Origin: a virus
Virus record (IMG/VR): IMGVR_UViG_3300048839_000550
Location: 1 to 22,629 of that record
DNA length: 22,629 nt
Strand: one strand, 5' to 3'
The position numbers and the translations under genes were made by a program. The notes beneath the pieces were generated by a model, which did not search any database, was not told the DNA's origin, and worked only from the letters and a program-made list of their open reading frames with translations. Of this stretch, positions 8,603-15,457 are shown one piece after another; the first letter of the stretch is position 1; the number at the start of each line of letters is the position of its first letter.

Positions 8603-8884
8603 TCAAGCCTCGCTCATATCGAGTTCACTGAATCGCCAGAAACGCCGCATTTTCCGTCGCCGTTGTGCCCTCAGCACGATCCCGCGTGTGCTCAGGTACA
8701 GCCGATGCGTGAGCCATCGTTGAAATGACGCGCCCCGTTCCGGCTGCCACGACTCAGCCGCACGCCAGAGGATCAGCGGGTAATCGCCGCCGAAGTCCTC
8801 TCCGTAGCGCCGTTCCATGCGTTCGGCCCATCGCTCGCAGTAGGAGGACCACCGGCGAGCGAGGCGTTCTTGAGCAGATGTCAT
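8603..8884 (-). CDS. Small sigma-factor region 2-like protein
   Basis: A 93-residue basic protein. The ATG at 8884 overlaps the terminase stop (ATGA), so I reject the longer frame starting at 9049. Residues 36-72 (YPLILWRAAESWQPERG, SFQRWLTHRLYLSTRG) closely follow the pattern of sigma-70 region 2.2-2.4, where an acidic/aromatic helix is followed by F.P.RG..F..Y......I. The tail is strongly basic (RAQRRRKMRRFWRF). No region 4 is present. It could bind RNA polymerase or DNA as a late regulator, or the likeness could reflect a helix-turn-helix used in packaging. Pattern seen; function inferred. Confidence 0.65.
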   Translation of the reverse strand: MTSAQERLARRWSSYCERWAERMERRYGEDFGGDYPLILWRAAESWQPERGASFQRWLTHRLYLSTRGIVLRAQRRRKMRRFWRFSELDMSEA

Positions 8885-10974
8885 GCACCACGCTGCGACT
8901 GGAGATCCCTGAAGCTCATTCGCTTTCGCGGCTTTGGCTTCGACGGTTGGCTTTCGGCCAGCGACACGCCGCACATCGACGCAGCAACGGCAGATCCGAC
9001 GAGCGTGTCGAGATAGTGGTTGTCCGGCTTCCCGACAACCGGCTTCCACTCGTCAACGACCCGCGAGGAGCCGTCACGTCGAACAGCCACCGGGTATTCC
9101 GCCGTCAGATGATCGGCGTAGAGCCGGTGGGCTTGCGGCCGATCTCCAAACAGGACAAGAGACCCGCGATCGCCACGCGACACCGCCAATCTCGCATGAA
9201 CGAATGATTTCCAGTAATTCGCATCGAAAATCACCTTGCGAATCGACCGTTTTCCCCTGGAGTCCAGAGGCATGTACCAGTTCAGGCCCAGCCGCTCACC
9301 TGGCCTGGCCTTCCACTCGCTCATGGGACGACCGCTTGCCCCGATCCCCTTGCCGTGGCTCGGCGTCAAGATCGCCGCATGCTTCGACTCCCGGCAGAAC
9401 TGGTATACGACGTCTGTCTGGGCACCCCAGTTGGCGTCAATCGGGCAGCGTTCAACCCGAAACGACAATCCGTCGGCACGAATCCATTCGCGGTCCAGAA
9501 TCAGGTCCGTCAGCTTCTCTAGTCCGGCGTAAATCTGGCCCTCGACGCCAGCAGCCCGCGTCACCCGAGAAAGCGTCTGAGTCGCATCGCGGAGTGTGAA
9601 ATAGCCTCGCTTCTGGTCCGGGTAGGTGCCGTAGTCGATCACCGCGCCGCCGAAATGGTCGTCCCAACCGACAACGCTGTAATAGAGCACGTCCTGGTGC
9701 ACGTCGATGAACGCCGTCAGCCTGGTGCACTCCAGTGGGACAGTACCGCAAGCGATTCGGTTGATTCGCGCCGTGATCTCGTCGGCTGTCAGGATGTCGG
9801 CCCTGATCTCGGTGTCCGGCAAGGGCTCGTTCTGGTACTCAGCGAAGAATGCCGCAGGGTCGCGGAACTTCAAATTCATCGCATGCTGGATTGCGGATAT
9901 CTCGTCAGGGTCGTACCGTTCTGGCCATGAGACCTCCGATCCGGCATCCATCTCCTCGCGGTTGGCCCGATAGAAATCCGTGGCCTCTGACCCGTCTCGT
10001 CCGGCCTCCAGGCTCTCGCTGCGGATCTCGTGGTATCGCTCCCACAAGGCCGTGTTCGTCGGGAACGATCGAACCATCCGGGTCTTGCGTCCGCTCCACT
10101 CTGGGTTCTTCTTGCGGTCCAGGAGCTGGTCGGCCATGTCGTCGGCCTTGATGACCGTGCAGGGCATGATCGCCGCGATCTTCTTTCCAGGCCCAGCCAT
10201 GCCTAGCACATCTCCGCTCACGATCGCCATTCGGTCCTCACTCTGCGAGCGTGACCGGGCCGACTCCCGCGTCTGCGGATCGTCCAGAATCACCAGCTCG
10301 GGCCGCACGATCGAGCTGTCCGGCAAGGCTGCCGACTGGCCTCGCAAGGCCCCGGTGATCCCGGCGACAGTCACCGTCGACCCACCGACGTTCACGCCGT
10401 CGCAGGCCCAGTCCGGCATCCTGGGGAACGTCAGGCGGTCGGCCGCCCACTCGATCTGAGTCTGCTGGCCGTCGAAGAGCTGGCCGGCTGCCTTACGGGC
10501 GTTGTTTTCCAGCTTGATCAACGGGTGGCACACCTGGCGGAAGTCGGCGGCCAGAACCTCGTTGCACGTCAGATCGAACTTGATTTGCTTGAGAATTCGC
10601 TCGGCATGTCGCTCAGACGCGCCCACCAGGCACACGAATCGACGGTGCCCGTAAAGCAACGACCAGATCGCCGCCTTGACGCTGATCGTCGTTTTGCCGC
10701 TTCCTCGCGGCATCGCCAGCGCGAACAGCCCGCCGCCCAGGACGACCTCCTGCATTCGCTCCAGCACAAGCAGGTGGTCTGACGACCAGGCCAGAGGGAA
10801 CGCCGCGGGGAAGTAGTGCTCGCAAAATCGCCGCAGGTCTTTCTCGCACGCTTCTCGCGTTTCCAGATCACCCGACTCTGGATAATCCTCAGCGATATCC
10901 CGCGCGGTCCGACTGACAACCGCCGCCCTCGCGTTGTCTGCCGCCAGCGAATCGTGATAATTACGCCGTGGCAT
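8881..10974 (-). CDS. terL: Terminase large subunit
   Basis: A 697-residue ATPase-nuclease that pumps phage DNA into the prohead through the portal and cuts it. Walker A is AMPRGSGKTT (about 87-96), Walker B LVILDD (227-232). The C-terminal nuclease has the expected acidic residues: FIDVHQD near 425, an acidic region around LEKLTDLILDREW, and HYLDTLVGSAVAAS near 668. Length is close to lambda gpA and related enzymes. The ATG at 10974 has no clear Shine-Dalgarno sequence. A 180-base leader with a hairpin precedes it. No small terminase subunit is certain; the HTH protein at 13818-14051 is a candidate. Confidence 0.92.
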   Translation of the reverse strand: MPRRNYHDSLAADNARAAVVSRTARDIAEDYPESGDLETREACEKDLRRFCEHYFPAAFPLAWSSDHLLVLERMQEVVLGGGLFALAMPRGSGKTTISVKAAIWSLLYGHRRFVCLVGASERHAERILKQIKFDLTCNEVLAADFRQVCHPLIKLENNARKAAGQLFDGQQTQIEWAADRLTFPRMPDWACDGVNVGGSTVTVAGITGALRGQSAALPDSSIVRPELVILDDPQTRESARSRSQSEDRMAIVSGDVLGMAGPGKKIAAIMPCTVIKADDMADQLLDRKKNPEWSGRKTRMVRSFPTNTALWERYHEIRSESLEAGRDGSEATDFYRANREEMDAGSEVSWPERYDPDEISAIQHAMNLKFRDPAAFFAEYQNEPLPDTEIRADILTADEITARINRIACGTVPLECTRLTAFIDVHQDVLYYSVVGWDDHFGGAVIDYGTYPDQKRGYFTLRDATQTLSRVTRAAGVEGQIYAGLEKLTDLILDREWIRADGLSFRVERCPIDANWGAQTDVVYQFCRESKHAAILTPSHGKGIGASGRPMSEWKARPGERLGLNWYMPLDSRGKRSIRKVIFDANYWKSFVHARLAVSRGDRGSLVLFGDRPQAHRLYADHLTAEYPVAVRRDGSSRVVDEWKPVVGKPDNHYLDTLVGSAVAASMCGVSLAESQPSKPKPRKRMSFRDLQSQRGA

Positions 10975-11074
10975 TTGTTTATGGTTCAGGCGGGGAAGAA
11001 CGAAACACTATACGTTTGTAGCTGAAACCCAATCAGTAGCAAGCCCTTACGATTTTTGAAGGACCCGCGAGCCA

Positions 11075-11153: not shown

Positions 11154-11249
11154 CTATTGCCGCTCGCCCAGGAGATCGGCGAACATCTTCCCGAGCAGCC
11201 AGAGGGCCAGCAGGCCCACGATCAGCACGCCTGCGAGGAAGCGGATCAC
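11154..11249 (-). CDS. Very small single-pass membrane protein (31 aa)
   Basis: The GTG start overlaps the stop of the upstream gene (GTGA), and TAG ends at 11154. Translation gives VIRFLAGVLIVGLLALWLLG then KMFADLLGERQ. Residues 3-20 form one hydrophobic helix, followed by a short amphipathic, charged tail. It is the last of five coupled genes for membrane or secreted proteins. Holin, spanin-like or other membrane-active roles are possible; no family is recognised. The longer frame covering it (from 11666) is arginine/proline-rich shadow sequence. Confidence 0.6.
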   Translation of the reverse strand: MIRFLAGVLIVGLLALWLLGKMFADLLGERQ

Positions 11250-11635
11250 TTGCTTGCCTTGCGGGTTGCCGCCTTCTTGGCGGAAGCGACGGCGGGGGCC
11301 GAATCCAGCACGAACGGCTCGGCCGGGGCGGGTGCGGACGCGATTGATTCGGCAGCCAGGGCGCGACTGATCGAGGCCGCGAACTCGCGGGCCTTCTGCT
11401 GGGCGATCCGGTCGGCCACGATCCGATCCGCCAGCAGCTCGCCGTCCCGGTTGGCCTGGGAGACGATACCCAGAGGGACGGTCGGCTCGCTGTAGGACTG
11501 GCTGAACACGCTGGGCAGGATCGGGGCGGTGGACGGCTGGGCGGGCGTTCTCGCCTTCTTGCGAGGCCACAGGGCGTAGGCGACAGCGGCGAGCAGGACC
11601 AGGCCGGCGAGCAGGGTGGGGGTATCGAGGTTCAC
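11246..11635 (-). CDS. Membrane-anchored small protein
   Basis: A 129-residue protein starting at the GTG at 11635, which overlaps the upstream stop (GTGA). Residues 6-23 (PTLLAGLVLLAAVAYALW) form an N-terminal membrane anchor, followed by basic RKK. The remaining 100 residues are soluble, with an alanine-rich helical section (residues about 66-100, LLADRIVADRIAQQKAREFAASISRALAAE) and an Ala/Lys tail ending in ATRKASK. The helix could form a coiled coil. It is in the coupled membrane cassette. Function unknown. Confidence 0.7.
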   Translation of the reverse strand: MNLDTPTLLAGLVLLAAVAYALWPRKKARTPAQPSTAPILPSVFSQSYSEPTVPLGIVSQANRDGELLADRIVADRIAQQKAREFAASISRALAAESIASAPAPAEPFVLDSAPAVASAKKAATRKASK

Positions 11636-12177
11636 GGTTCTCTCCGGCTGGCGATGAACAGGACAACGATCGTGGCAGCCACCAGCAACGCCGCTGGCAG
11701 ATAGGGGGCGAGCGACAGGGACGCGGGCAAGGCGTTGGGTCCGATCGGCAACGGGACTTCCCGCTCGACCTCGGGGTACGTTTCCGACTCGCTGAGCAGA
11801 TCGACGCGAAATCCGGGGTCGTTCGTTTCGAACGTGCCGGGCTGCTGGTCCTGCTCGACGGCCTCCAGGTCCACGCCGAAATTTTCCACGTCTTCCAGAT
11901 CCTTGATCACGGGTTGCTTGGGTGGCTCCGGTTCCACCCTGACTTCCGGCTCAGGCTCAGGCTCCGGGGTCGGTTGCGGCTGCGGTGGCTTCTGGGCCAG
12001 GTGAGGATTTTCGGTTTCGTAGTACCGGATGGTCGTGCCCTCCAGCCAGCCGTAGAGGGTGCGGCCGTAGGCGTCCAGGTAGTACGCTTTCGCGACGCCG
12101 GTCGGGGCCGGGCAGCTCCCGTCGAGGCAAGGCTGCTGAGCGACGACCGCCAAAGCCAGGAAGATGGCGGCGGTCAT
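11632..12177 (-). CDS. Secreted, C-terminally anchored Pro/Glu-rich protein
   Basis: A 181-residue protein with an ATG that overlaps the peptidase gene stop (ATGA). A short signal-like hydrophobic segment (MTAAIFLALAVVA) is followed by a two-cysteine loop CLDGSCP, a YYLDAYGRTLYGWLEG stretch, a proline/glutamate repeat (PQPTPEPEPEPEVRVEPEPP, residues about 67-86), an acidic region, and a C-terminal membrane helix (residues about 158-177, YLPAALLVAATIVVLFIA) ending in SRREP. The Pro/Glu stretch would act as a periplasmic or cell-wall spacer. Function unknown; the shape recalls envelope-spanning proteins, which is inference. Confidence 0.7.
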   Translation of the reverse strand: MTAAIFLALAVVAQQPCLDGSCPAPTGVAKAYYLDAYGRTLYGWLEGTTIRYYETENPHLAQKPPQPQPTPEPEPEPEVRVEPEPPKQPVIKDLEDVENFGVDLEAVEQDQQPGTFETNDPGFRVDLLSESETYPEVEREVPLPIGPNALPASLSLAPYLPAALLVAATIVVLFIASRREP

Positions 12178-12914
12178 GCAAAGGACTCACTTTCCCGCCG
12201 CTTGCCGATCACGATCGTGACGGCAGCGGCGATCAGAATCACCAGGGGCAGAACACTCACGCCTGCCAGCATCGGCAATCGGGTCCACACCCAGGCCCAG
12301 CCGGTTGAGCCGTCGATCCAGCGGCGATCGAATTCTTGAGCCGGCATCCAGGAGTAGTACCCGGGCCGGTTGTTATCGACGACGCAGGCCCACTCGCCCT
12401 GTCGGTAGTGGACCAGGCTGACCATGTGATGGATCGGGCGATAGTTATATAACGCCCCGGTATTCATGGTCGCGCCGATCGGGTATCCCTTGCGACTCAG
12501 GGCGTCGAGGACCGACGTATCGCGGCCCACGTAACTGGCCCAGGTCTCGTCAGGGTGGATCGACTCGACGAGGTTCGCCAGCTTCTGGGGGGCATAGCCG
12601 CCCGGGCGCTGTTTCGCCGTCCTCCAGAGCTGGCTTTGCTTCGCACCTTCCAGGCCGGGCACCTGCTGATACTGACCGTTGGCGAGGATCGAGGCGATCA
12701 CGCACAACCCCGCGCCGTCGGAGCCACCCTCGTTCTGGATGTGCTGGGACGGTGGGATCGGGGCTGACGCCTTGACGCCCTGGTGGGTATCCGAGCGTGT
12801 CACCAGCTCGCCACGCGAGTCGGGCTGCTGGGCCTGGATGGATGAGGCACTTAGGCCCAGCAACACGACCACGGCGGCAACGACGGCAGCGAGGCGTTGC
12901 TTCCGGTAAATCAC
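12174..12914 (-). CDS. Secreted, membrane-anchored C39/papain-like cysteine peptidase candidate
   Basis: 246 residues from the GTG at 12914, which has GGGGAG 7 bases upstream and overlaps the upstream stop (GTGA). An annotation starting at 13205 would run through non-coding sequence. Signal peptide residues 1-28 (hydrophobic core 8-24, IQA cut site), then GGSDGAGLC with candidate nucleophile Cys71, IHHMVSLVHY with candidate His162/163, and CVVDNN with candidate Asp180/Asn181. A C-terminal membrane helix covers about 214-237, then a charged tail KRRESESFA. The Cys-His-Asp/Asn order and spacing fit C39-like/papain-like folds, and I recall similar proteins in planctomycetes. It could cleave an envelope protein or be an inactive relative. 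Activity is inferred, not shown. Confidence 0.75.
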   Translation of the reverse strand: MIYRKQRLAAVVAAVVVLLGLSASSIQAQQPDSRGELVTRSDTHQGVKASAPIPPSQHIQNEGGSDGAGLCVIASILANGQYQQVPGLEGAKQSQLWRTAKQRPGGYAPQKLANLVESIHPDETWASYVGRDTSVLDALSRKGYPIGATMNTGALYNYRPIHHMVSLVHYRQGEWACVVDNNRPGYYSWMPAQEFDRRWIDGSTGWAWVWTRLPMLAGVSVLPLVILIAAAVTIVIGKRRESESFA

Positions 12915-13075
12915 GTCAACTCTCCCCGTTTCGGCCGCATAACCACAAGGCTCTGTGTGAGGCAGACGACCAGGCCGACGACCCCCATGGCCAGGGGACC
13001 GCCAAGCTCCAGGCTTTCGATCATCAGGAGCCCGCCGTACAGGCCAAGCACGAACGAGGCGAGCAGACGATTCAT
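12911..13075 (-). CDS. Small two-helix membrane protein (54 aa), holin candidate
   Basis: The frame from the ATG at 13075 to the TGA at 12911 encodes 54 residues starting MNRLLASFVLGLYGG. Two hydrophobic segments, residues 4-19 and 27-46 (LAMGVVGLVVCLTQSLVV), are separated by ESLELGG, with a basic end RPKRGELT. Two short helices and a basic tail in about 50-60 residues is the shape of class II holins, but there is no firm family match. It is the first of five overlapping genes and lies after the strong hairpin at 13096-13131. No clear Shine-Dalgarno sequence is visible (GAGAG is near the start). Confidence 0.65.
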   Translation of the reverse strand: MNRLLASFVLGLYGGLLMIESLELGGPLAMGVVGLVVCLTQSLVVMRPKRGELT

Positions 13076-13131: not shown

Positions 13132-13184
13132 TGCCGAAACACCACGCGCCCGACAGAGAGTGCACTCACGTTGTTTTTTTGAAG

Positions 13185-13256
13185 TGTCGGGGGCAGGATT
13201 TGCACCTGCGATCTCCAGATTATGAGACTGGCGAGATACTACTTCTCCACCCCGGC
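13185..13256 (-). tRNA. tRNA-Met (anticodon CAT), atypical
   Basis: A 72-base cloverleaf can be drawn. Acceptor GCCGGGG/CCCCGAC has a C2-A71 mismatch; then T8, D stem GAGA/TCTC with a 7-base D loop (AGTAGTA), G26, anticodon stem CCAGT/TCTGG with a T-T mismatch next to the loop CTCATAA, variable AGATC, T arm GCAGG/CCTGC with loop TGCAAAT, and discriminator A. CCA is not encoded. The D loop lacks the usual GG pair and the T loop has G where T55 is expected, so it is an odd or decaying phage tRNA. The acceptor and D-stem entry (GGGGTGGAG) resemble bacterial initiator tRNA, but the G-C pairs normally found in the initiator anticodon stem are absent. It could also be a CAT-anticodon tRNA-Ile2. Confidence 0.75.
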
Positions 13257-13262
13257 ATAGGA

Positions 13263-13430
13263 TCAGGGCACCCGACGAACGATCAACGCCGCGACCACGA
13301 TCGCCACGACGAACAGCAGCGAGGCCACACAGCCGTCGACGAAGCCCCGCCAGTACGTTAGCCGCAGAATCCCCTCGACGATCGCACGGAGGGCGTCAGG
13401 GAGCCTTGCGAGGACTTCGGCCTCGGACAC
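13263..13430 (-). CDS. Small membrane protein (55 aa)
   Basis: The start is the GTG at 13430, with GGAGG seven bases upstream; an upstream TTG at 13448 would place this ribosome site inside the gene. N-terminal half: amphipathic helix SEAEVLARLPDALRAIVEGILR. Residues about 32-51 form a membrane helix (VDGCVASLLFVVAIVVAALIV) followed by RRVP. It overlaps the preceding gene by 35 bases. The stop lies 7 bases from the mature 5' end of the tRNA-Met. No family recognised. Confidence 0.65.
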   Translation of the reverse strand: MSEAEVLARLPDALRAIVEGILRLTYWRGFVDGCVASLLFVVAIVVAALIVRRVP

Positions 13431-13851
13431 GCTGTAACCTCCGGTCAATCAGCACGCGAACGCCTAGCAGCTCCATGGGCGACTCCGTCACCGGGTCGAT
13501 CGCCTCGACGGGATCGGGTGACGAAGGGAGCAGCTTGCGGTACGGGTCGGGGTGCGGCTCGGGCTCGCCGACCGAGTGGCGGCGCCGCTCGATCTGGGGT
13601 GGCTCGTCTCGATCCATCGGTGCCCAGTAGGGGCTCTGCGTGTAGGGATGCTCGACCAGGTGGACGCCGATCAGGGTCGCGCCGTAAGGGGTCAGGATCA
13701 CGACCGGATCGTCGAGCTGCCAGATCTCGATCAACCCGGAACCGATCAGCTCGACGGCTGCCGGCACCTCGTCGAGCCGGCGCCAGGCGAGAGGACCGGA
13801 CGCCAGCTCGACGAGGATCAGTCTTGCGGCTCGCGGGACGCCTCCCGGCAT
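13396..13851 (-). CDS. Hypothetical protein, possible winged-helix N-terminus
   Basis: A 151-residue protein from the ATG at 13851 (AAGG about 7 bases before). Residues 7-70 (ARLILVELASGPLAWRRLDEVPAAVELIGSGLIEIW, then VVILTPYGATLIGVHL) resemble a small winged-helix unit: helices, then strand, wing and strand. The rest is proline-rich and polar (PPQIERRRHSVGEPEPHPDPYRKLLPSSPDP) and ends very basic (RRLQRVRGRSPRKAP). The gene overlaps the preceding HTH gene by 34 bases and the next small membrane gene by 35 bases. The frame is open back to 14388, but the region beyond 13851 overlaps the HTH gene and the att region and is not coding-like. DNA binding is a guess. Confidence 0.55.
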   Translation of the reverse strand: MPGGVPRAARLILVELASGPLAWRRLDEVPAAVELIGSGLIEIWQLDDPVVILTPYGATLIGVHLVEHPYTQSPYWAPMDRDEPPQIERRRHSVGEPEPHPDPYRKLLPSSPDPVEAIDPVTESPMELLGVRVLIDRRLQRVRGRSPRKAP

Positions 13852-14051
13852 CGGAGGCCCTTCTGGTACGACCTGGCAGCCTGAACGCCCCGCTTGACGG
13901 TTCGCTCGTGAACGCCCTCCAGTGCCGCAATCTCCCGGTACGTCATGCGGTTCCGGGAGAGAAAGTCCCACCACAAATTGCGGGCCTTCAGGACCGGACA
14001 CTCGGTTGCGCCGGGTCGGCCGCGCCGTCGCGGCATGGTCGCTGTACTCAT
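13818..14051 (-). CDS. Small HTH protein (small terminase or regulator candidate)
   Basis: A 77-residue basic protein with an ATG at 14051 (an alternative at 14036). After a basic leader (MPRRRGRPG), residues 35-60 (MTYREIAALEGVHERTVKRGVQAA) form a clear helix-turn-helix of the sigma-region-4/recombinase type. It is the first gene of the leftward late group and lies beside the attP site. It could be a late-gene activator, a control protein for integration, or the small terminase subunit, which is otherwise missing. No clear Shine-Dalgarno sequence. Confidence 0.6.
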   Translation of the reverse strand: MSTATMPRRRGRPGATECPVLKARNLWWDFLSRNRMTYREIAALEGVHERTVKRGVQAARSYQKGLRCREASREPQD

Positions 14052-14206
14052 GCGTGAAGATCGCCAGGGTCATGGGTGGCCCCTCTACCCTACGGGTAAC
14101 GGCGGACAGATATTCACTGGAAATCCACGTCCTGCTGCATCCTATCGATTGTCCCGCAAGGAGTTTACACGATTTCACCCAGTTCTCCAAACGGGACAGG
14201 AAATCC

Positions 14207-14230
14207 GGCACGCTATCCGGCACGGTATCC
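14207..14230. repeat. Left pair of integrase arm-type repeats
   Basis: Two adjacent 12-base copies, GGCACGCTATCC (14207-14218) and GGCACGGTATCC (14219-14230). The same motif, in the same orientation and with the same 12-base phase, recurs at 14407-14430, 200 bases away on the other side of the tRNA-Phe core. Probably binding sites for the N-terminal domain of the integrase. Confidence 0.7.
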
Positions 14231-14247
14231 CTGCCAGACGGGTGGGA

Positions 14248-14276
14248 TTGACGGTAATTCCCGGAAACGCTAGAAC
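14248..14276 (+). promoter_or_regulatory. Candidate integrase promoter
   Basis: TTGACG (14248-14253), a 17-base spacer and TAGAAC (14271-14276) fit a sigma-70 promoter pointing towards the integrase. The attP core (14334-14376) lies between this promoter and the integrase start, so integration would separate the two. There is no other clear promoter between the core and 14432. Confidence 0.5.
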
Positions 14277-14333
14277 GCCGCAACTCCCTGATATCCCTGG
14301 CATTGCAGGGGTTTACGTCGGCACGACACCCAC

Positions 14334-14376
14334 ACTGAAAATCCTGGTGTCGCCGGTTCGACCCCGGCTCTGCCCA
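14334..14376 (+). other. attP: attP core: 3' half of a tRNA-Phe(GAA) gene
   Basis: The sequence runs from an anticodon loop CTGAAAA (anticodon GAA) through TCCTG, GTGTC, T stem GCCGG, T loop TTCGACC, CCGGC, acceptor TCTGCCC and A73. The 5' half is absent: no GGGCAGA acceptor partner lies upstream. This is how a phage keeps the 3' part of its target tRNA so the gene is rebuilt on integration. Phage genes and matched arm repeats flank it on both sides, so it is attP and not attL or attR. Confidence 0.82.
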
Positions 14377-14406
14377 TTGCGAATTCACTGGACCTCGGGG
14401 AGATCT

Positions 14407-14431: not shown

Positions 14432-15457
14432 ATGCCACGGCCCCCCCGACCCTGGTTCCGCGCAGAGCGGAACGCCTGGTTCGCCCAGGTTGATGGCAAG
14501 CAAGTCCGGCTCGCGATAGGACGCACGAACCGCCCCGAAGCTGAGAAGACGCTCAGGAGGCTGCTGACGGCCCGCGACGAATGCAAGCCGATCTCTGCCG
14601 GCCTGACCGTCCGGGATGTGTGCAACCTGTTCCTCGCTCACTCCGCGAAGCGGCGGGCGGCGGTCACGGTGGCCGGGTACGAACGTCACCTCGTCTCAGC
14701 CTGCCGGTCGTTCGGCGCGGAGCGGGCCGAATCGCTGCCGCCGCACCGGGTCACCACCTGGCTGGACGGTCAGACGGGATGGGGCGACACGACCCGGTTC
14801 AACGCCGTCACGGCGGTCAAAGCGGCGTTCCGGTGGGCGAAGCGATCCGGGTACCTGGCGGTGAACCCGATCGCGGACCTGGAGCGCCCAACCCCGGCAC
14901 GACGCGAGGCGGTGCCGACTCCGGAGCAACTGGAGGCGATCCTCGACGCCTGCGGTCACGAACGGCACCGGGAGCTGCTATCCGCGCTGGCCTGGACGGG
15001 GTGCCGCCCCGGCGAGGTGTACGGGCTGACGGCTGCCGACGTTGACCTCGCCGCGGGGACGTGGACGGTGCAGAACAAGGTCGGCTGGAAGACGGGGGAG
15101 CGGACCCGCACGGTCTACCTGACAACCGAGGTGCTGGAGCTGTCCCGGCACCTGGTCGAGCGATTCCCGACCGGGCCGATCTTCCGCAACGTCTGCGGTC
15201 GGCCCTGGACGCGAAACGCCGTCGCCCTGCTCTTCCGCCGCATCCGCCGCAAGACGGGGCTGGGAAGGGAGGCGACGGCGTACGCGCTGCGGCATTATTA
15301 CGTAACCAGCGCTCTGGAGAGCGGGGTGCCGATCGCCACGGTGGCCGCGCTGGTGGGCCACCTGGACGTGACGATGATCTCCCGCGTCTACAGCAAGCTC
15401 AGTCAGAGGCGGGAGCATCTGCGGTCAGAGGCCGAACGGGTGAAGCGGGTGGGGTGA
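14432..15457 (+). CDS. int: Tyrosine recombinase, phage integrase
   Basis: A 341-residue site-specific recombinase that would join attP to the host tRNA-Phe gene. The N-terminal arm-binding part (residues 1-45, RPWFRAERNAWFAQVDGKQVRL) is followed by a SAM-like core-binding domain (about 57-150) and a catalytic domain (about 160-330). Catalytic residues: Arg192 (TGCRPGE), Lys216 or Lys220, Tyr284-x-x-Arg287-His288 (YALRH, where the usual first His is Tyr), His310 (LVGH) and nucleophile Tyr320 (SRVYSKL). It is the only convincing gene on the plus strand. No Shine-Dalgarno sequence precedes the ATG; arm repeats occupy that place. It converges on the gene at 15399-15626, overlapping it by 59 bases. 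Confidence 0.95.
   Translation: MPRPPRPWFRAERNAWFAQVDGKQVRLAIGRTNRPEAEKTLRRLLTARDECKPISAGLTVRDVCNLFLAHSAKRRAAVTVAGYERHLVSACRSFGAERAESLPPHRVTTWLDGQTGWGDTTRFNAVTAVKAAFRWAKRSGYLAVNPIADLERPTPARREAVPTPEQLEAILDACGHERHRELLSALAWTGCRPGEVYGLTAADVDLAAGTWTVQNKVGWKTGERTRTVYLTTEVLELSRHLVERFPTGPIFRNVCGRPWTRNAVALLFRRIRRKTGLGREATAYALRHYYVTSALESGVPIATVAALVGHLDVTMISRVYSKLSQRREHLRSEAERVKRVG

Follow-up and report, generated by a model that had tools for sequence, protein, structure and literature searches.

The DNA analyzed here, hereafter the window, is the entire 22,629-base IMG/VR record IMGVR_UViG_3300048839_000550 and, as judged from its genes, derives from a temperate tailed phage. These genes encode a GpA-type terminase large subunit (TerL; 8881..10974, minus strand), a lambda-type portal, a prohead protease/capsid protein, a cement protein, an integrase, RusA and a DUF5906/D5 primase. 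A sister contig from a different metagenome (L106/G763) is 96.7% identical to the window across 11 kb and contributes a further ~14 kb of tail genes; all of the viral records compared are fragments, and the genome of the window virus is only partly covered. A planctomycete host is indicated by where relatives occur, namely in an Isosphaeraceae MAG and in genomes of the same family and class. The integrase gene starts at 14432, and 55 bp before it lies a stretch (14334-14376) that resembles the 3' part of tRNA-Phe, comprising the anticodon loop CTGAAAATC and the T-arm. This stretch is the likely attP, and the minus-strand ORF that reads across it (13396-14388) is probably spurious there. The early region also holds a gene for a putative phage metallopeptidase (17348-17947; PF18894) that has no signal peptide.

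Adjoining the terminase gene are five coupled ORFs, p1 to p5, all on the minus strand and joined in order by GTGA, ATGA, GTGA and GTGA overlaps; both this arrangement and its place beside the terminase are as first described in the initial annotation, with p5 on the terminase side. The outermost ORFs are p1 (13075-12911; ATG start, 54 aa), a two-helix membrane protein, and p5 (11249-11154; GTG start, 31 aa), a single-helix ORF. The overlap chain was dropped as a significant feature in itself, since it is close to what chance yields in GC-rich DNA: order-2 Markov simulations produced at least five chained ORFs (minimum 28 aa) in 8 of 40 sequences, and three chained ORFs that were each 120 aa or longer in 10 of 200. 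Rather, the gene set is judged to be real because p2, p3 and p4 keep their order elsewhere. No counterparts of p1 or p5 were found in the loci of relatives, so the claim that all five genes form one system was not supported. Upstream of p1 are a phage-borne tRNA-Met (CAT; 13184..13256, minus strand; ARAGORN) and, separated from p1 by it, p0 (13263..13448, minus strand), which encodes a 61-aa protein with a helix and a C-terminal transmembrane (TM) helix. Counterparts of p0 in relatives are the small TM genes, common immediately upstream of p2, that share the motif Y-x-R/K-G-x-x-D-G; in pairwise comparisons p0 matched those of L022 and L023 weakly and that of L004 not at all. The natural boundaries of the cassette thus appear to differ from those of the five-gene set. 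None of p0, p1 and p5 matched a holin family in Pfam or PHROG, and all three are holin candidates by size and TM content only: p1 is a possible holin, and p5 may be either a chance ORF or a small holin-like peptide. Another possible holin is encoded within the tail-gene region of the sister contig (L187:6563-6814); it is 83 aa long and is predicted to have two TM helices.

The central gene, p2 (12914-12174, minus strand; GTG start, 246 aa), encodes a predicted exported cysteine peptidase of the papain/C39 fold with a signal peptide and a C-terminal TM anchor. Its AlphaFold model (pLDDT 88.2) has a papain/C39-like fold, in which helices 2-23 and 221-242 are the membrane features; both the export and the membrane topology of p2 are predictions. 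Foldseek searches of the PDB matched the model to Alr0975 and to the C39 domains of PCAT and ComA (probability 1.00) and, with a weaker E-value, to PeiR, while searches of viral models returned Lysin A of two Mycobacterium phages, the Gordonia OneUp endolysin and cyanophage lysozymes. When p2 was compared by hhalign profile alignment with the protein annotated as endolysin in Synechococcus phage S-CBS2 (probability 78.5, E 1.7e-5), the Cys, His and Asp residues were aligned. The p2 family was also linked to that endolysin by one weak tblastn match, and one family member had a weak match to a PHROG endolysin (E 0.063). Alignments placed the catalytic triad at C71-H163-D/N180-182, and among 19 diverse p2 sequences C71, H163 and N182 were invariant and D180 nearly so; Cys71 and His163, the two residues singled out in the initial annotation, were invariant in a set of 12 relatives as well. 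At the level of sequence, p2 of the window matched no Pfam family at E<=1, C39 included, and its relatives in L016 and L025 had weak unrelated Pfam matches only. Searches with p1 to p5 and with p2 profiles against Pfam, PHROG and PDB sequences returned nothing significant, and scans with p2 as a single sequence against viral contigs and INPHARED phages returned no relatives, these being reached only by profile search. The assignment of p2 as a C39-like/papain-fold peptidase is therefore by modelled fold and catalytic residues and not by Pfam. In L179 and L137, p2 is likely a lipoprotein.

Profile searches identified p2 relatives in 8 of the 45 genomes of the family of G001, in 59 of the 398 genomes of the class (12-sequence profile) and in 15 viral contigs. 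An apparent restriction to one family, seen in a phylum-wide search with a two-sequence profile, was rejected after the 12-sequence profile showed the low sensitivity of that search. At all loci inspected closely, p2 was followed by p3 and then p4, or by fused versions of these genes. The p2 and p3 parts form a single protein in L004, G753, L086-L090, L092, L095, L097, L099, L101 and L103, and from this recurrent fusion we argue for a shared function. In the L093/L094 pair, p2 is followed by a differently built anchored protein, and therefore the partner of p2 can vary. An integrase was found in the window, G753, G754 and G756, and many carriers of the trio are thus temperate. Several other genes were observed at these loci. 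In one Isosphaeraceae cassette a CAP-domain probable lipoprotein is encoded directly before p2 (L020:6508-6957; PF00188, E 2.2e-17), and a phosphoesterase-like protein of ~300-480 aa, in some cases with an N-terminal HTH, is encoded a few genes past p4 in L004 (3095-4549), L022, L023 (12122-13015) and L081 (5844-7055). In addition, a protein of the provirus G757 (L072-L075) has a match at E 3.8e-19 to PF24729, the hairpin domain of Acb2/Tad1, and is a candidate anti-CBASS/anti-Thoeris protein in a planctomycete prophage.

The two partners of p2 are also predicted membrane proteins. The 181-aa p3 (12177-11632, minus strand; ATG start) has a signal peptide, a Pro/Glu spacer, a C-terminal TM helix (residues 159-177) and an RR tail, and represents the short form of its family, without the thioredoxin-fold domain of the long form seen in many relatives. 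That domain lies at ~140-251 of the modelled long protein and matched many thioredoxins in Foldseek (probability 1.00, E ~2e-3); the mean pLDDT of the model is low (66.6), with the core of the domain mostly above 90. The p3-type protein of L170 matched PF13098 at E 3e-5, which is below the cut-off of that family. A redox role for the domain in general was ruled out, given that CxxC is missing from most p3 thioredoxin domains; it is present in L128. The 129-aa p4 (11635-11246, minus strand; GTG start) has an N-terminal TM helix, then basic residues, which are found in nearly all relatives, and a helical tail. By the positive-inside rule, p4 is probably N-out/C-in with its tail in the cytosol, the reverse of the topology of an i-spanin, and an Rz-like role was rejected on this basis. 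A two-component spanin is thus unlike this pair, as p4 does not have the N-in/C-out layout and neither p3 nor its relatives have a conserved lipobox; because of the latter, no o-spanin or u-spanin was recognized in the cassette.

Some relatives whose TerL and head genes are the same have an exported, C-terminally anchored trypsin-like protease in the slot of the trio. One such protease is encoded in the head operon of L150 (16679-18265; PF13365, E 1.3e-13), and further ones occupy the slot in, among others, L158, L164, L172, L174 and L185. In L128 (17819-19997) and L141 (19067-21248), a gene for a YiiX-like papain-fold protein (a likeness judged by eye, with no Pfam match) is followed by a trypsin-thioredoxin fusion, which in L128 carries the CxxC, and then by a small gene; L092 encodes a fusion of C39, trypsin and p3 parts. 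The occupants of the slot consistently combine export with a C-terminal anchor and a short helix in the cytosol, and many of the proteins share a CPxGxCP-type N-terminal motif. The trypsin-like replacement suggests a protein substrate rather than a simple endolysin, and proteolysis may be the general function of the module.

The position of the cassette in the genome is also informative. Five contigs from five different metagenomes start shortly before TerL: L106-L109 at 48-49 nt and L110 at ~54 nt upstream of its start. The first of these is the sister contig, which begins exactly at window position 11022/11023, 48 nt before TerL. The most likely cause of these shared starts is a physical genome end of the cos type, placed at 11022..11023; scans for right-arm contigs ending at the site gave none. 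With a genome end at this position, the virion genome would terminate on its right side 131 bp beyond the cassette. In L086, L091, L125, L137 and L179 the trio is instead flanked by capsid genes on one side and head-tail or tail genes on the other. Both locations have precedents among lysis genes, those of lambda (S-R-Rz) lying at the right genome end beside cos and those of P2 between head and tail genes.

In agreement with the initial annotation, Pfam found no recognized endolysin, amidase or spanin among the window proteins, and no standard endolysin family was recognized among the 40 proteins called in the window virus and the sister contig. A six-frame search of 12 related records for Amidase_2, Phage_lysozyme, SLT and NLPC_P60 was negative, with control genomes positive, and the Pfam families listed for the called proteins of G757, G753, G754+G756, G765 and the window virus with its sister contig, in two of these scans up to 25 families, included no wall hydrolase; endolysin families beyond these four were covered by the Pfam scans alone. 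A second wall-active enzyme was likewise not recognized in the window virus or in the other records. The combination that the initial annotation had named as counting against its proposal, a standard endolysin elsewhere together with variability of the five genes, was sought in these fragmentary records and was not found. As planctomycete peptidoglycan is lysozyme-sensitive (PMC4432640), ordinary endolysins should work on it and their absence needs explaining; the same sensitivity means that a wall-peptide target and a protein target are both possible. C39-like/papain (N5) domains have been reported from mycobacteriophage LysA (PMC3314691), as has a C39 LysA gene from Gordonia phage Culver (PMC10868165). 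We found no description of lysis genes or of a lysis system of planctomycete phages in the open-licence literature.

The initial annotation had proposed that the five genes are a peptidase-based route through the planctomycete envelope. The conserved trio, the probable cos end, the absence of a standard endolysin from the records searched and the fold that p2 shares with C39-like endolysin domains support the peptidase part of that proposal, and the inclusion of all five genes is not supported. On these sequence-based grounds, we put at about even odds the reading that the cassette is a module, specific to planctomycete phages, for protease-based lysis or envelope release, most likely one that opens or loosens the envelope. 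On this reading, the cassette would be expressed late and attack the envelope. Exported by Sec and held by its C-terminal helix at the outer face of the inner membrane, p2 would cleave peptide bonds in the envelope, in peptidoglycan stem peptides and/or structural envelope proteins. Its periplasmic partner would be p3, which likewise has a C-terminal helix as its anchor and in many phages forms one protein with p2, and p4, through its membrane helix and cytosolic tail, would together with p0, p1 and p5 keep the complex inactive and then trigger or release it on time, as holins do. Against lysis, a signal peptide combined with a C-terminal anchor is unusual for an endolysin, the trypsin-like occupants of the slot are not expected to cut peptidoglycan, p4 is reversed relative to an Rz-type i-spanin, and no holin was recognized.

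Some of these points bear on other explanations. The trypsin-like replacement and the C39-plus-trypsin fusion would suit a protease that strips only a protein layer or outer-membrane tethers, as a spanin substitute, while an unrecognized enzyme elsewhere cuts the peptidoglycan. In L128 and L141 the YiiX-like gene directly upstream of the trypsin-thioredoxin gene could encode such a wall enzyme, and the added CAP-domain protein of L020 and the two-TM protein encoded by the sister contig also fit. We nevertheless regard this explanation as unlikely, since no second wall-active enzyme was recognized in the window virus or the other records and known outer-layer proteases are less close to p2 than endolysin C39 domains are. 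Somewhat less probable still is superinfection exclusion or receptor shaving, an idea also raised in the initial annotation, in which the anchored protease complex would destroy or mask phage receptors or injection channels. Two unrelated folds of anchored exported protease in one slot suit the cutting of surface or periplasmic proteins, and many carriers are temperate; yet the genes are placed among late/structural ones, either next to TerL or flanked by capsid and head-tail genes, and not in a lysogeny region. Exclusion genes also tend to be accessory, whereas p2 came with the rest of the trio at the loci inspected and no replacement endolysin was found in the 12 records searched.

The least probable of the explanations considered, in our estimation, is that the anchored protease/thioredoxin-fold complex serves envelope quality control or aids virion assembly by processing an exported phage or host protein for virion production. 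The trio does lie within the head operon in L086, L091, L125 and L179, and a thioredoxin-fold partner, with CxxC in L128, would be in keeping with such a role, but p2 and p3 are predicted to be exported whereas tailed virions assemble in the cytosol, and most p3 thioredoxin domains are without CxxC.

The proposed lysis or release module resembles several known systems in part. With the C39-like (N5/papain) domains of mycobacteriophage and Gordonia LysA and of cyanophage endolysins, p2 shares its fold, the Cys-His-Asp order and its presence in tailed phages; it differs from them in carrying a signal peptide of its own and often a C-terminal anchor, in lacking a cell-wall-binding domain and in having the obligate partners p3 and p4, and it falls under Pfam and PHROG thresholds. 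As with lambda S-R-Rz/Rz1, the cassette lies between the early region and cos/terminase (the cos site here being deduced from contig ends) and combines small TM proteins, a hydrolase and anchored partners in overlapping genes, but there is no homologous protein, the hydrolase is predicted to be exported, p4 has the opposite topology to Rz and there is no o-spanin lipoprotein. A self-exported, membrane-tethered p2, with small membrane proteins that would trigger rather than export it, recalls SAR endolysin/pinholin systems such as that of phi21, although the tether of p2 is C-terminal rather than an N-terminal SAR domain and its triggering is hypothetical. Finally, p3 is like a T1-type unimolecular spanin in being exported with a C-terminal TM helix, and differs in having no conserved lipobox and in the thioredoxin-fold domain and peptidase fusion of its relatives.

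More broadly, and more tentatively, planctomycete tailed phages may use an exported, anchored proteolytic machine in which an interchangeable catalytic domain (C39-like, trypsin-like or both) is coupled to an adaptor with a thioredoxin fold and a membrane protein anchored in reverse orientation, so that protein-directed lysis replaces the endolysin/spanin set. Planctomycetes are a phylum with an unusual envelope, and the occurrence of the trio in phages without recognized endolysins makes the question of how they lyse their hosts directly testable. If the proposal is true, it would represent a distinct lysis strategy built on anchored proteases, the trio would serve as a marker for planctomycete phages in metagenomes, and its proteins would be possible enzymes for opening planctomycete cells.
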